Assembly: GCA_005882715.1 (NCBI GenBank)
Contig: VBEI01000005.1
Coordinates: 1-40,506, forward strand
DNA from: Chloroflexota bacterium
GTDB taxonomy: Bacteria; Chloroflexota; Dehalococcoidia; SM23-28-2; RBG-16-64-32
DNA length: 40,506 nt
Reading direction: 5' to 3'
Under the pieces are notes generated by a model. The model saw nothing but the letters and a program-made list of their open reading frames with translations, ran no database searches and was not told where the DNA came from. Of this stretch, positions 11,894 through 33,835 are shown in pieces. Each line of letters opens with the position of its first letter. Position 1 is the stretch's first letter. A program made the translations under genes and the position numbers.

Positions 11894-11911
11894 TTGAGCA
11901 TCTCTGCTCAA
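11894..11911. promoter_or_regulatory. Perfect inverted repeat upstream of PAS-LuxR gene (candidate operator)
   Basis: TTGAGCA-TCTC-TGCTCAA, followed 17 nt later by TATAAT at 11929-11934. Confidence 0.5.
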
Positions 11912-12049
11912 TTGACGGTAAGGCGTGCTATAATCCGCGTGCAAAGAACGAGGGTGCGCCTTCCCGACCCGGGGCGGTCCCGAAGGCCTGCGGAGCTGCT
12001 TCGTGGCTCCGCTCACCCAGTGCGCCTCTGCCTTTACCGGGGCTGTCCA

Positions 12050-13615
12050 ATGAGTGTAGTTGAAGGCGCCGGGCGCCGGCCCGGCGTGCGGACGACGAAA
12101 GCGGGCCTGCAGAGCGGCGTACCGAGCAGAGCTGGGCCGGTGCAACCGGACGCCAGCGGACAGCCGGCACCCTCAACGCTGGCCGTCGACTCTCCGTTCG
12201 GTTGGGCGGCGGCGCTCTACCGAAGCATCGTTGACACTTCCCCCGACGCGATCACGGTAACGACGATCGAGGGCAAGATAATTCTTTGCAACCAGCAAGC
12301 GGCGACGCTGCACGGCTTGCAACGAGTCGACGAGATGATCGCCCGTTCGGCCTGGGAGTTCGTGGCGGGAGAAGACATCGAGCGCGCCTCGCGGGATTTC
12401 CTGCGTATTTTGACGGAAGGTAGCATTCGGGACGTCGAGTATTCGCTGTTGCGTGCCGACGGCAGGCGGGTGCCCGTGGAACTTAGCGCATCGGCGATTA
12501 TTGATAAGGAGGGTAAACCGCGAGCGCTAATCAGCGTCGTTCGAGACGTTACGGAGCGGCGGACGGCCCAGGAGGCGCTGCGCCGGAGCGAGGAGCACTT
12601 CCGCCATCTAATCGAGAACGCGCCGGACTTGATCACGGTCATCGAGCCAAGCGGTGAGATTCGCTACCAGAGCCCGTCGGTACGACGGACGCTGGGGTAT
12701 ATGCCAGACGAGCTGGTAGGCACAAGCATCTGGCAAATTATTCATCCGGACGACCTGCGAGAGGTCGGGGATGCAATAGCACGAGGGCTCCTCGAGGTAC
12801 AGTCATCGGAATCGGGGCTGCCACACAAACTGCTTGTCTTCCGGGCGAGGCACAGAGATGGGCGCTGGCGCTACATGGAGGGGTCCGGCAAGGTGCTGAT
12901 GGAGGACGGCCGCGCATATGGGTTGATCAACTCGCGCGACATCACCGACCGGATCGAGGCGGAACGGGCGCTGGAAGCGAGCGAGCGGCGCAAGGCGGCT
13001 ATCTTAAAGACAGCTCTGGACGCAATTATCACCATCGATTACGAGAGCAAGATCCTCGAGTTCAATCCGGCGGCCGAGGCGATGTTCGGTCACGCTGCCG
13101 CCGAGGCGATAGGGAAATCGCTCGACGACCTGATCGTGCCACCTTCGCTGCAAGCCAAGCATCGGCCCGGGATGGAGCGCTACATGACAACCAGTGAGGG
13201 CCCGGTGCTGCGGAAGCGGATCGAGCTGACCGGGATGCGGGCGGATGGAAGTGAGTTTCCGGTGGAAATCGCCATCGTACCCATCGAGATGGCCGGGGCA
13301 ACGATTTTTACCGGCCACGTACGCGATTTGACCGAGCGCAAGCGAGCGGAAGAGGAGCTTCAGCGGGCCAGGGAGGAGCTGGAGAGTAGAGTCGAGCAGC
13401 GGTGGGGCGTGGAAGGTGCGTACGGACTGACTTTTCGCGAGCTGACCGTGTTGCACCTGGCGTCAAGCGGAAGGGCTGACAAGGAGATTGCGGCTACGCT
13501 AGGGATCAGCCCGCAGACCGTAAACAAACACGTGCAGCGGATACTGCACAAGATGGGCGCATCATCCCGCACAGAGGCGGTGGTGCGGGCGATCAAAGAG
13601 GGGGTCGTAGGGTAG
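12050..13615 (+). CDS. Multi-PAS sensor protein with C-terminal LuxR-type HTH (one-component regulator)
   Basis: Three PAS-like repeats plus YGLTFRELTVLHLASSGRADKEIAATLGISPQTVNKHVQRILHKMGASSRTEAV; track start 11894 is non-canonical and the in-frame ATG at 12050 is preferred. Confidence 0.88.
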   Translation: MSVVEGAGRRPGVRTTKAGLQSGVPSRAGPVQPDASGQPAPSTLAVDSPFGWAAALYRSIVDTSPDAITVTTIEGKIILCNQQAATLHGLQRVDEMIARSAWEFVAGEDIERASRDFLRILTEGSIRDVEYSLLRADGRRVPVELSASAIIDKEGKPRALISVVRDVTERRTAQEALRRSEEHFRHLIENAPDLITVIEPSGEIRYQSPSVRRTLGYMPDELVGTSIWQIIHPDDLREVGDAIARGLLEVQSSESGLPHKLLVFRARHRDGRWRYMEGSGKVLMEDGRAYGLINSRDITDRIEAERALEASERRKAAILKTALDAIITIDYESKILEFNPAAEAMFGHAAAEAIGKSLDDLIVPPSLQAKHRPGMERYMTTSEGPVLRKRIELTGMRADGSEFPVEIAIVPIEMAGATIFTGHVRDLTERKRAEEELQRAREELESRVEQRWGVEGAYGLTFRELTVLHLASSGRADKEIAATLGISPQTVNKHVQRILHKMGASSRTEAVVRAIKEGVVG

Positions 13616-13631: not shown

Positions 13632-13647
13632 TACCTAAAAATAGGTA
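13632..13647. promoter_or_regulatory. NarL-like 7-2-7 palindrome
   Basis: TACCTAAAAATAGGTA; one mismatch from TACYYMT-NN-AKRRGTA. Confidence 0.45.
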
Positions 13648-13699
13648 TTGACTAGCGGGCGAACGTAACCGACGATAAGGGTGTCGCACCCTCCCTTGG

Positions 13700-13781
13700 G
13701 CAGCGGGCGACCCGTTCCGGTACGGGTTCGCCCAAATATGGCAGCGGGCGAGAACGGTTCCGGTATCGTTCTCGCCCAAAT
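13700..13781 (+). repeat. Tandem hairpin pair with shared flanks and loop core
   Basis: GCAGCGGGCGACCCGTTCCGGTACGGGTTCGCCCAAAT and GCAGCGGGCGAGAACGGTTCCGGTATCGTTCTCGCCCAAAT; both fold into 11-bp-class stems with TTCCGGTA at the loop. Confidence 0.7.
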
Positions 13782-13845
13782 CTTTTGTGCCGTAAACTCT
13801 TTGTCGCTTCCCGTTTGATTCCTTTCGCCCGGGCGCCGGCAGGGG

Positions 13846-13874
13846 TTGATTTTCTTAACCAATCGAGATAAATT
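13846..13874 (+). promoter_or_regulatory. Putative promoter for GAF-PAS-LuxR gene
   Basis: TTGATT - 17 nt - TAAATT. Confidence 0.4.
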
Positions 13875-14004
13875 AACGGCGCGGTAGGCAATTGCCGTAC
13901 CAAAGACCCTGTGCGCGCAAGCCGCAAGGAGCGGCGCGGGGCGGTAATAGGTGCGACCTTCCAGCGCTGCTGGTATTTGTACCGTCGCAGACCGGAGCGA
14001 CGAA

Positions 14005-15981
14005 ATGAAAGAGCCAGAGCAGTCGCGCTCGCATAAGACAAAGGGAGCGAAGGGTCAGCTCCAGGAGCTGATCGATGTAATCGCGCTACGCGCGTCAACT
14101 GCCGGTGTGGCTGAAGTTCAGGGCATTGAAGATGCCCTGCGATTCGTAGTCGACCGCATATGCCGCCACACCGGCTGGCCGGTGGGGCACGTCTACATGC
14201 CGGCGCCCGATTCTGAGGATGAGTACGTGAGCGCAGGCATCTGGCACCTCGATGACGCCGCGGCGCTCGAACGATTCCGCAAGGCCACGGAGCAGACGCG
14301 GCTCAATGGAGACGTGGGATTACCCGGCCGGGTCCTGTCGTCGGGCAGACCTGCCTGGGTGGTTGACGTAGGGCAGGAGCCGGGCTTCCCCAGAGCCGCA
14401 GCGGCCAGGAGAGCGGGCCTTAAGTCGGCGGTCGCGTTCCCAATTCAGGCCGGCGAACGGACCGGGGCAGTGGTGGAGTTCTTCTCGCGGGAGGTGATGG
14501 AGGCTAACGAGCATCTGCTCGAGGCGATGGTGAGCATCGGCACGGAGCTGGGAAGGGCTTTCGAACGCAGCCGTGAGTTGTCGATGGCGCAGCAGGCGGC
14601 GGAGCTATATCGGAGCGTTGTAGAAACTTCGCCGGACGCCATTATGGTCACGGACCTGAATGGCAGGGTGCTGATGTGCAACCAGCAGGCGGCGGCCCAC
14701 CACGGCGCGGAGGGGCCGGAGGCGATGCTGGGTCTCAGCGGCTTCGATTTCGTGGCACCGGAAGACCGGGAGCGCGCCGTTGAGAATGCGCGGCGCACGC
14801 TAGAGACGGGCGGAGTTCGCAACGTGGAATATACATTGGTCCGGCGGGACGGCTCGCGCATCCCTGCTGAATTGAGCGCGTCGCTGATCCGGGACCCGCA
14901 GGGACAGCCGCGCGCCTTCATCGCTGTTGTGCGCAACGTTGCTGAGCGAAAGAAGTCCGAGGACGCGCTGCGCCAGTCGGAGGAGAAGTTCCGCACGCTG
15001 ACGGAGATGAATGCGGCGGCAACGTTCGTCTTCAAGAAGGGCCGCCTCGTGTACGCGAATTCGGCGGCGGCGGAAATGACTGGATACAGCGTCGACGAGC
15101 TTCTGACCATCGACCCATGGAAGACCGTACACCCCGACTTCCGGGAGAGCCTGGAAGAGGCCTGGCGCGCAACCTTTGAGCGACCCGACCAACCGCCGCC
15201 GAGTGGGTTCGAGGTGAAGATCGTAACGAAGGACGGTGACGAGCGCTGGGTCGAGTACAGCGCCGACCTCGTGGATTGGGAAGGCGGCAGGGGAGTCCTC
15301 GGGACTGCTTACGACGTGACGGAGCGCAAGCAGGCGGAGCAGGCGCTGCGCGACAGCGAGGAACGCTACCGGGTGATGTACCAGGACAACCCCTCGATGT
15401 ACTTTACCGTGGACGCGGCGGGCAGGGTGCTTTCCGTGAACCAGTTCGGCGCGGAGCAGCTGGGCTATGCGCCGGAAGAGCTGGCCGGCACGCCCGTGCT
15501 AGAGGTCTTCTACGATGAGGACAAGGAGGATATCGCCCGCCAACTCCAGCTGTGCATGGACACGCCGGGGAAGATGTCGCACTGGGAATGCCGCAAGGTG
15601 AGGAAGGATGGGGAAGTGGTCTGGGTCAAGGAGGCGGCGCGCGCGACTTTAGACGTCAACGGCGAACTAATCGTGCTCATTGTGTGTGAGGACATCACAG
15701 AGCGCCGGCGGATGGAAGAAGAGCTGCGGAAGGCGAGGGAGGAGCTGGAAGGCAAGGTCGAGCGGCAGATGCAGCAGGGACGGGCCTATGGCCTTACCTT
15801 CCGCGAGCTAACTGTCCTTCACCTGGTTGCGGCCGGAAACTCCGACAGGGAGATGGCTGATAAGCTCGGCATCAGCCCTTTGACGGTGAGCAAGCACGTC
15901 GCCAACATCCTGTCGAAGATGGGGGCGTCCTCACGCAGCGAGGCGAGTGCGCGCGCGGTGCGGGAAGCGCTTCTCGTGTAG
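14005..15981 (+). CDS. GAF-multi-PAS sensor protein with C-terminal LuxR-type HTH, paralog of the preceding gene
   Basis: GAF-like N-terminus (WPVGHVYMPAP..., AVAFPIQAGERTGAVVEFFS), three PAS repeats, YGLTFRELTVLHLVAAGNSDREMADKLGISPLTVSKHVANILSKMGASSRSEA; ATG 14005 preceded by ggag. Confidence 0.88.
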   Translation: MKEPEQSRSHKTKGAKGQLQELIDVIALRASTAGVAEVQGIEDALRFVVDRICRHTGWPVGHVYMPAPDSEDEYVSAGIWHLDDAAALERFRKATEQTRLNGDVGLPGRVLSSGRPAWVVDVGQEPGFPRAAAARRAGLKSAVAFPIQAGERTGAVVEFFSREVMEANEHLLEAMVSIGTELGRAFERSRELSMAQQAAELYRSVVETSPDAIMVTDLNGRVLMCNQQAAAHHGAEGPEAMLGLSGFDFVAPEDRERAVENARRTLETGGVRNVEYTLVRRDGSRIPAELSASLIRDPQGQPRAFIAVVRNVAERKKSEDALRQSEEKFRTLTEMNAAATFVFKKGRLVYANSAAAEMTGYSVDELLTIDPWKTVHPDFRESLEEAWRATFERPDQPPPSGFEVKIVTKDGDERWVEYSADLVDWEGGRGVLGTAYDVTERKQAEQALRDSEERYRVMYQDNPSMYFTVDAAGRVLSVNQFGAEQLGYAPEELAGTPVLEVFYDEDKEDIARQLQLCMDTPGKMSHWECRKVRKDGEVVWVKEAARATLDVNGELIVLIVCEDITERRRMEEELRKAREELEGKVERQMQQGRAYGLTFRELTVLHLVAAGNSDREMADKLGISPLTVSKHVANILSKMGASSRSEASARAVREALLV

Positions 15982-16082
15982 TTATCAACACCAGCAAGAT
16001 TTTAAATAAGCCACAAAAATACTAGAAATCAGGTATTTACCAGCCTCTGCGGTTCCCTAAATAATTGAGGTACCCTCTTTTT

Positions 16083-16132
16083 GGGCTCCGCGGGCCGGGC
16101 GAGCCGCAACGCTTGGCCCGCTCCCTTTTTTT
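16083..16132 (+). terminator. Rho-independent terminator after GAF-PAS-LuxR gene
   Basis: GCGGGCC ... GGCCCGC stem followed by TCCC and T7. Confidence 0.65.
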
Positions 16133-33475: not shown

Positions 33476-33835
33476 GGGGACGAAAGGGTTCGACAGGGAA
33501 GGTTGAGCCCGGATTGCAGGCCGAGTTCGTCACCAACTCGAAAATCAGGTGGCGCTAAAAGTAACTGGCAGAACAAACCAGTACGCACTGGCTGCCTAAT
33601 CTAGGCTAGTCACGTTGGGTCCAGGCCTCACCCCGATGGGCAGGGCCCGACGCCGCAATGTCGGGGTGCTGTCTCTCCGACGCCGATGCAGAGAGACCTA
33701 AGACTTTTCGGCTGGCGCGGCGGCAAGTTAGCCGCGGACGTACGTCGCGCGAGATTGAAACGACGGCTAAGCCTGTAGGAGATTCGGGGAGGCTTTCCTC
33801 TGGACGAGGGGTTCGATTCCCCTCCGTCTCCACCA
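33476..33835 (+). ncRNA. ssrA: Transfer-messenger RNA (tmRNA, SsrA)
   Basis: 5' GGGGACGaaagGGTTCGACAGG; tag region ending ...YALAA (TACGCACTGGCTGCCTAA); 3' GAGGGGTTCGATTCCCCTCCGTCTCCACCA; TAAAAT -10 box about 9 nt upstream. Confidence 0.96.

Follow-up and report, generated by a model that had tools for sequence, protein, structure and literature searches.

Twin hairpins in a predicted small RNA

Two adjacent hairpins in the intergenic region between two genes for LuxR-type sensor-regulators of an uncultured soil Chloroflexota bacterium are probably the body and terminator of a trans-acting small RNA, about 105 nt in length, which would run from position 13681 to about 13787 and be transcribed from a LuxR-box promoter of its own. 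The window, by which we mean the whole analysed stretch of 40,506 nucleotides, corresponds to contig C16 in a genome of 2.0 Mb that is 74% complete and whose close relatives are metagenome-assembled Chloroflexi/Dehalococcoidia genomes, including two congeners with soil-depth sample names (G001 and G002). It carries, in order, nuoE-nuoF, luxR1, the twin-hairpin unit (unit A), luxR2, a second unit (unit B) and mutS; the names nuoE, nuoF and mutS were assigned from the genes' own sequence, not via a family search. According to Pfam, luxR1 (11894–13615, forward strand; true start probably ATG 12050) encodes a PAS-PAS-PAS-LuxR(GerE) regulator with 3 PAS domains and 1 GerE domain, for which G001 and G002 each have an ortholog in the corresponding position, and luxR2 (13951–15981, forward strand; start probably ATG 14005) encodes a GAF-PAS-PAS-PAS-LuxR(GerE) regulator. 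The window also holds a tmRNA gene at 33476–33835, with the tag GRTNQYALAA.

Hairpin 1, GGGCGACCCGT-TCCGGT-ACGGGTTCGCCC (13705–13733, forward strand; 26/29 positions kept in relatives), and hairpin 2, GGGCGAGAACGGT-TCCGGT-ATCGTTCTCGCCC (13746–13777, forward strand; 32/32), are both preceded by GGCAGC and followed by AAAT, and both display the hexaloop UCCGGU closed by a U-A pair. They are joined by the linker AAATATGGCAGC (13734–13745, forward strand; 12/12 in relatives), copied from the flank of the first repeat. The inner stems are unlike in sequence and two pairs apart in length, the second repeat is 3 nt longer than the first, and the first contains a one-base bulge. The original prediction of twin hairpins with a common loop and flanks and with different yet pairing inner stems was confirmed at 13705–13733 and 13746–13777, and each hairpin folds as described and better than shuffled sequence (−21.4 kcal/mol, z = −2.6 for hairpin 1; −24.7 kcal/mol, z = −3.8 for hairpin 2). 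Two instances of the paired pattern GGGCGA-N-TCGCCC were counted in the window, both at this locus, compared to a mean of 0.34 in shuffled sequence (5/100 shuffles reach 2). Compensatory change between the copies, also proposed originally, stands insofar as every position pairs; with inner stems unlike in both sequence and length, the changes do not form a column-by-column compensatory set. Among the congeners, hairpin 1 shows 3 changes, of which A-U to G-U and G-C to G-U keep the pair and one falls in the bulge.

A box, a promoter and a probable terminator delimit the unit

Upstream of the hairpins lies a LuxR/NarL-type palindromic box, TACCTAAAAATAGGTA (13632–13647, forward strand), a perfect inverted repeat that abuts the −35 element of a sigma-70-type promoter consisting of TTGACT, a 17-nt spacer and GACGAT (13648–13676, forward strand). 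The −35 element is identical in the 3 species, and the layout of TTGAC, 17 nt and a −10 element was also seen in G005, G008, G010 and G011. The sequence near 13654 that had been read as a partial third copy of the hairpin is the spacer between the −35 and −10 elements; it is one of the less conserved parts in relatives (11/17 and 13/17) and forms no such hairpin. The 5′ end of the predicted small RNA A (about 105 nt; 13681–13787, forward strand) was placed from the −10 element and its 3′ end from the terminator. Near its start, the RNA would carry a pyrimidine-rich, anti-Shine-Dalgarno-like core, CGCACCCTCCCTTGGGCAGC (13685–13704, forward strand), matching CGC[AG](C)CCTC[CT]CTTG[GA]. The core folds to a predicted mini-hairpin with the loop UCCCUU in unit A and UCUUUUU in unit B; in the congener alignment, the 5′ mini-hairpin of the window, GGGTGTCGCACCC, is not kept in the relatives.

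A terminator scan picked out the hairpin 2 stem and the tail AAATCTTTT (13778–13786, forward strand), in which TCTTTT is kept in 3 species. A stem of 13 bp followed by the T-rich AAATCTTTT agrees with an intrinsic terminator with a short T tract, and hairpin 2 with this tail is probably the terminator of an independent unit, which probably also stops read-through from luxR1. As judged from sequence and conservation, the intergenic region contains a unit with its own promoter and terminator at 13632–13787. The original prediction included neither the box and promoter nor the pyrimidine-rich element, and it did not mention the further unit at 16020–16132.

The predicted RNA is more conserved than the adjacent gene

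DNA identity to the congeners across the region is 79%. Identity to G001 and G002, in that order, was 88 and 88% in the box, 100 and 100% in the −35 element, 65 and 76% in the spacer, 96 and 92% in the 5′ part of the RNA, 90 and 90% in hairpin 1, and 100 and 100% in both the linker and hairpin 2. Beyond the terminator it was 62 and 67%, compared to 81 and 82% in the luxR1 coding end. Predicted RNA A as a whole is 93–94% identical to its counterparts and the 3′ coding end of luxR1 81–82%; conservation is therefore higher in the predicted RNA than in the adjacent gene. The conservation peak comprises the box, the −35 element, the RNA and the terminator, with lower values on either side, and the single-stranded core and linker are conserved as much as the stems. 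The sequences from G001 and G002 are nearly identical to each other, so that effectively two lineages represent unit A. The original suggestion of a regulatory RNA selected for structure is supported by conservation above that of flanking coding sequence, by the conservation of both promoter and terminator, and by the related units found elsewhere.

These features bear on the alternatives. It is rather unlikely that the hairpins are a (double) transcription terminator of luxR1 alone. They do stand 90 nt past the luxR1 stop codon, and hairpin 2 has a T-rich tail; however, the stop codon is separated from the hairpins by the conserved box and promoter, a T run is missing from hairpin 1, the unpaired core and linker share the conservation of the stems, and promoter, core and terminator are found together after other luxR genes. 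The caveat raised originally, that the element might be no more than the upstream gene's terminator, is therefore right about the terminator-like character of hairpin 2 but at odds with the conserved promoter that separates luxR1 from the hairpins.

We also regard as unlikely that the region is the 5′ leader or attenuator of luxR2, with hairpin 2 as a conditional terminator. Such a leader would fit a terminator-like hairpin located on the same strand upstream of a regulator gene, but luxR2 has its own conserved promoter, TTGATT, 17 nt and TAAATT (13846–13874, forward strand; region 81–84% conserved in congeners), placed 60 nt beyond hairpin 2 and its tail. Moreover, the stretch from the terminator to this promoter is poorly conserved (62–67%), unit B and the second unit of G010 precede mutS and no luxR gene, and no riboswitch family matched.

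Very little speaks for a DNA-level element in which the palindromes serve as additional operators. Inverted repeats are bound by LuxR-type proteins, and two genes for such proteins flank the locus, but the hairpins differ from the box and are rich in GC, and conservation extends to the non-palindromic core and linker. The protein-binding hairpin named among the original candidates found no support.

A REP-like or mobile palindromic repeat inserted as a tandem pair is highly improbable. The two similar intergenic palindromes with common flanks resemble one, but the tandem unit is confined to three congeners, with one copy in each genome and always at the same place, and other GGGCGA-TCGCCC palindromes in the genome lack this loop and flank. 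REP elements have many copies with a common consensus, and the hairpins are not REPs because each of the 3 genomes has one tandem locus; the REP-like candidate was accordingly dropped. With a covariance model of the whole RNA, every one of the three congeners yielded a single locus, whereas the 390 other class genomes yielded nothing convincing; weak matches elsewhere (E = 0.02–0.09 per genome; 393 genomes searched) were attributed to chance. Finally, we give almost no credence to a short protein-coding gene, such as one from ATG 13738 (26 aa) or GTG 13681, since despite an open frame on the forward strand the peptide is wholly different between species past hairpin 2, hairpin 2 contains no third-position change, and the frame sequence is not common to related units in other genera.

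Predicted box-driven units in related genomes

A small RNA with its own LuxR-box promoter, the reading that we prefer, has relatives elsewhere. The sequence TACNNANNAATMNGTATTKAC, which joins the box to the −35 element, gave 8 matches without mismatch across the 393 genomes of the class; the family's 15 genomes account for 7 of these, and the reversed control gave 0 matches. Six of these 7 lie just 3′ of a PAS-LuxR gene (the window, G001, G002, G010, G005 and G011); the exception, in G008, precedes another gene. When one mismatch was allowed, 25 genomes of the order gave 10 matches, against 0 for the control, and 7 of the 10 directly follow a PAS-LuxR gene. At one locus of G008 (L020; G008:C59:94492-94512), the identical box and −35 element stand upstream of a gene apparently encoding a secreted protein, and the box regulon is therefore not confined to small RNAs.

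G010 has two tandem units and G005 has one, each composed of box, TTGAC, 17 nt, −10 element, core and a single GC-rich terminator hairpin. Their core reads CGC[AG]CCTC[CT]CTTG[GA], an element common to three genera. These units were first located by the box without regard to a luxR gene; the luxR neighbour, the core and the terminator hairpin emerged afterwards. The order luxR-unit-mutS recurs in G010, where nuoF is likewise upstream of luxR. In the same genome (L123; G010:C27:135200-139700), the luxR 3′ end and its small-RNA unit form a tandem duplication, with a short luxR C-terminal remnant before the second unit. The box is present without such an RNA in G011 and G008. Downstream of a PAS-LuxR gene in G008 (L103, after 2764; G008:C76) we observed a GC-rich repeat array (GTCGGGCGAACACGGG..GGCGTAGGGGCG), apparently a different kind of dispersed repeat.

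The second unit of the window, predicted small RNA B (16020–16132, forward strand; conserved in G001 and G002), lies between luxR2 and mutS and comprises the box TACTAGAAATCAGGTA, TTTACC, TAAATA, a diverged core, GGTACCCTCTTTTTGGGCTCC, and a strong terminator hairpin at 16090–16121 with a T run. Its promoter-profile E value is 6.9e-5, with B itself one of the training rows. The profile recovers all units (E = 4e-8 to 3e-4 per genome) and no further strong site; these matches are largely its own training rows and therefore show consistency. A regulator box is thus common to unit A, unit B, both G010 units and the G005 unit.

Pairwise unit similarity between genera, measured by shuffling, was weak: it was strong only for the first G010 unit against G005 (5/2000) and ranged from 59 to 285/2000 for unit A against the others, while unit B showed no pairwise similarity to other units. 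The core pattern CGCRCCTCYCTTGR alone occurs by chance in coding sequence: its matches outside the known units are mostly in open frames, and none of those read had a box or terminator. When all units were aligned with MAFFT, gaps were too numerous for a family covariance model. We consider unit A and its relatives to be a probable small-RNA family, driven by the LuxR box and marked by an anti-Shine-Dalgarno-like element.

Possible targets and mechanism

Both flanking regulator genes offer possible sites to RNA A, although complementarity to them exceeded chance only weakly. The luxR1 leader contains GAGGGUGCG, a 9-nt perfect complement of CGCACCCUC in RNA A, and the luxR2 leader contains GGUGCGAC, an 8-nt perfect complement of GUCGCACC; ACCGG, complementary to the hairpin loops, occurs in the ribosome-binding regions of both genes, and the complementary leader sites are largely kept in congeners. 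Shuffling of the longest run gave p of about 0.02 for luxR1 and 0.04 for luxR2, with two other genes of the window, among 23 leaders, scoring equally. Pairing energies with the luxR1 and luxR2 leaders were not significant, and no significant pairing with target leaders was found in G010. We hypothesize that RNA A feeds back on the flanking luxR mRNAs.

At another locus (L037:1480-1665; G000:C119:4641-4826), the box TACCTAATAATCGGTA precedes TTGACG-17-TAATGT and a candidate hairpin RNA of ~100 nt that ends in TAATCTTTT and is 83% conserved in G002:C75; it contains GAGGGTG, the complement of CACCCTC in RNA A. For this Dehalococcoidia family we tentatively entertain a multi-RNA circuit in which box-driven small RNAs directly behind PAS-LuxR genes would feed back on the mRNAs of their regulators and the C119 RNA (GAGGGUG against CACCCUC of RNA A) possibly acts as a sponge.

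In the mechanism that we propose, a LuxR-type protein of the neighbour family, with LuxR1 as a candidate activator, would bind the palindromic box and recruit RNA polymerase. Class II activators sit at the edge of the −35 element, and a LuxR/GerE-type protein at the box would, given the layout, adjoin this edge. The RNA would be released at hairpin 2, and the element with the loop UCCCUU, perhaps with both UCCGGU loops, could base-pair at ribosome-binding sites and so prevent several mRNAs from being translated, the mRNAs of both flanking regulators possibly among them as feedback. The tandem form probably arose when the terminator hairpin was duplicated with its GGCAGC flank, after which the inner stems would have diverged under selection for pairing. 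Only a single hairpin is present in the units of other genera, and the simplest account of the twin hairpin is therefore a duplication of the terminator, probably specific to the genus.

If this reading is true, an uncultured lineage has a family of small RNAs for which both a candidate regulator and a DNA box that can be read are at hand, and the box and promoter profile offer a handle for defining a regulon from genomes alone; the tandem hairpin would illustrate how a terminator can duplicate and diverge, yet keep its loop.

Comparison with known systems

Rfam gave no family match at either threshold (best sub-threshold model Atu_C4, 22.8 bits against 80), and in the open-licence literature we found no paper joining Dehalococcoidia with small RNA; unit A probably represents a new family within a type of gene-control RNA that is otherwise known. 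The hairpins share with REP elements (PMC12306157) the form of short extragenic palindromes with common flanks, but do not occur in many copies per genome.

Closer parallels are found in csRNAs, LhrC and NfeR1, whose C- or CU-rich elements pair with Shine-Dalgarno sequences (PMC3091779, PMC4132741, PMC10746234). LhrC1-5 of Listeria (PMC4132741) resemble the units as predicted here in being multicopy, in requiring the response regulator LisR and in having redundant CU-rich/UCCC sites for target binding; they differ in lineage, regulator type and copy arrangement, and their targets are established whereas ours are predicted. NfeR1/alpha-r14 of rhizobia (PMC10746234), from a lineage unrelated to this Chloroflexota, likewise has several hairpins with one unpaired motif and different stems, and an anti-Shine-Dalgarno motif. 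Its motif CCUCCUCCC is in each hairpin, whereas here the hairpins carry the loop UCCGGU and the pyrimidine-rich element is outside them. NfeR1 feeds back on ntrBC, the regulator that controls it (PMC10746234). The cia-dependent csRNAs of Streptococcus (PMC3091779) use CiaR and a direct repeat, in contrast to the LuxR/GerE-type neighbour and palindromic box of unit A; we claim no sequence kinship with them, unit A being known from its sequence, in which no AUG-complementary element was identified. The units as predicted here would resemble them in being driven by a response regulator via a conserved promoter repeat, with several per genome, and in combining a terminator hairpin and an optional second hairpin with a Shine-Dalgarno-complementary element.
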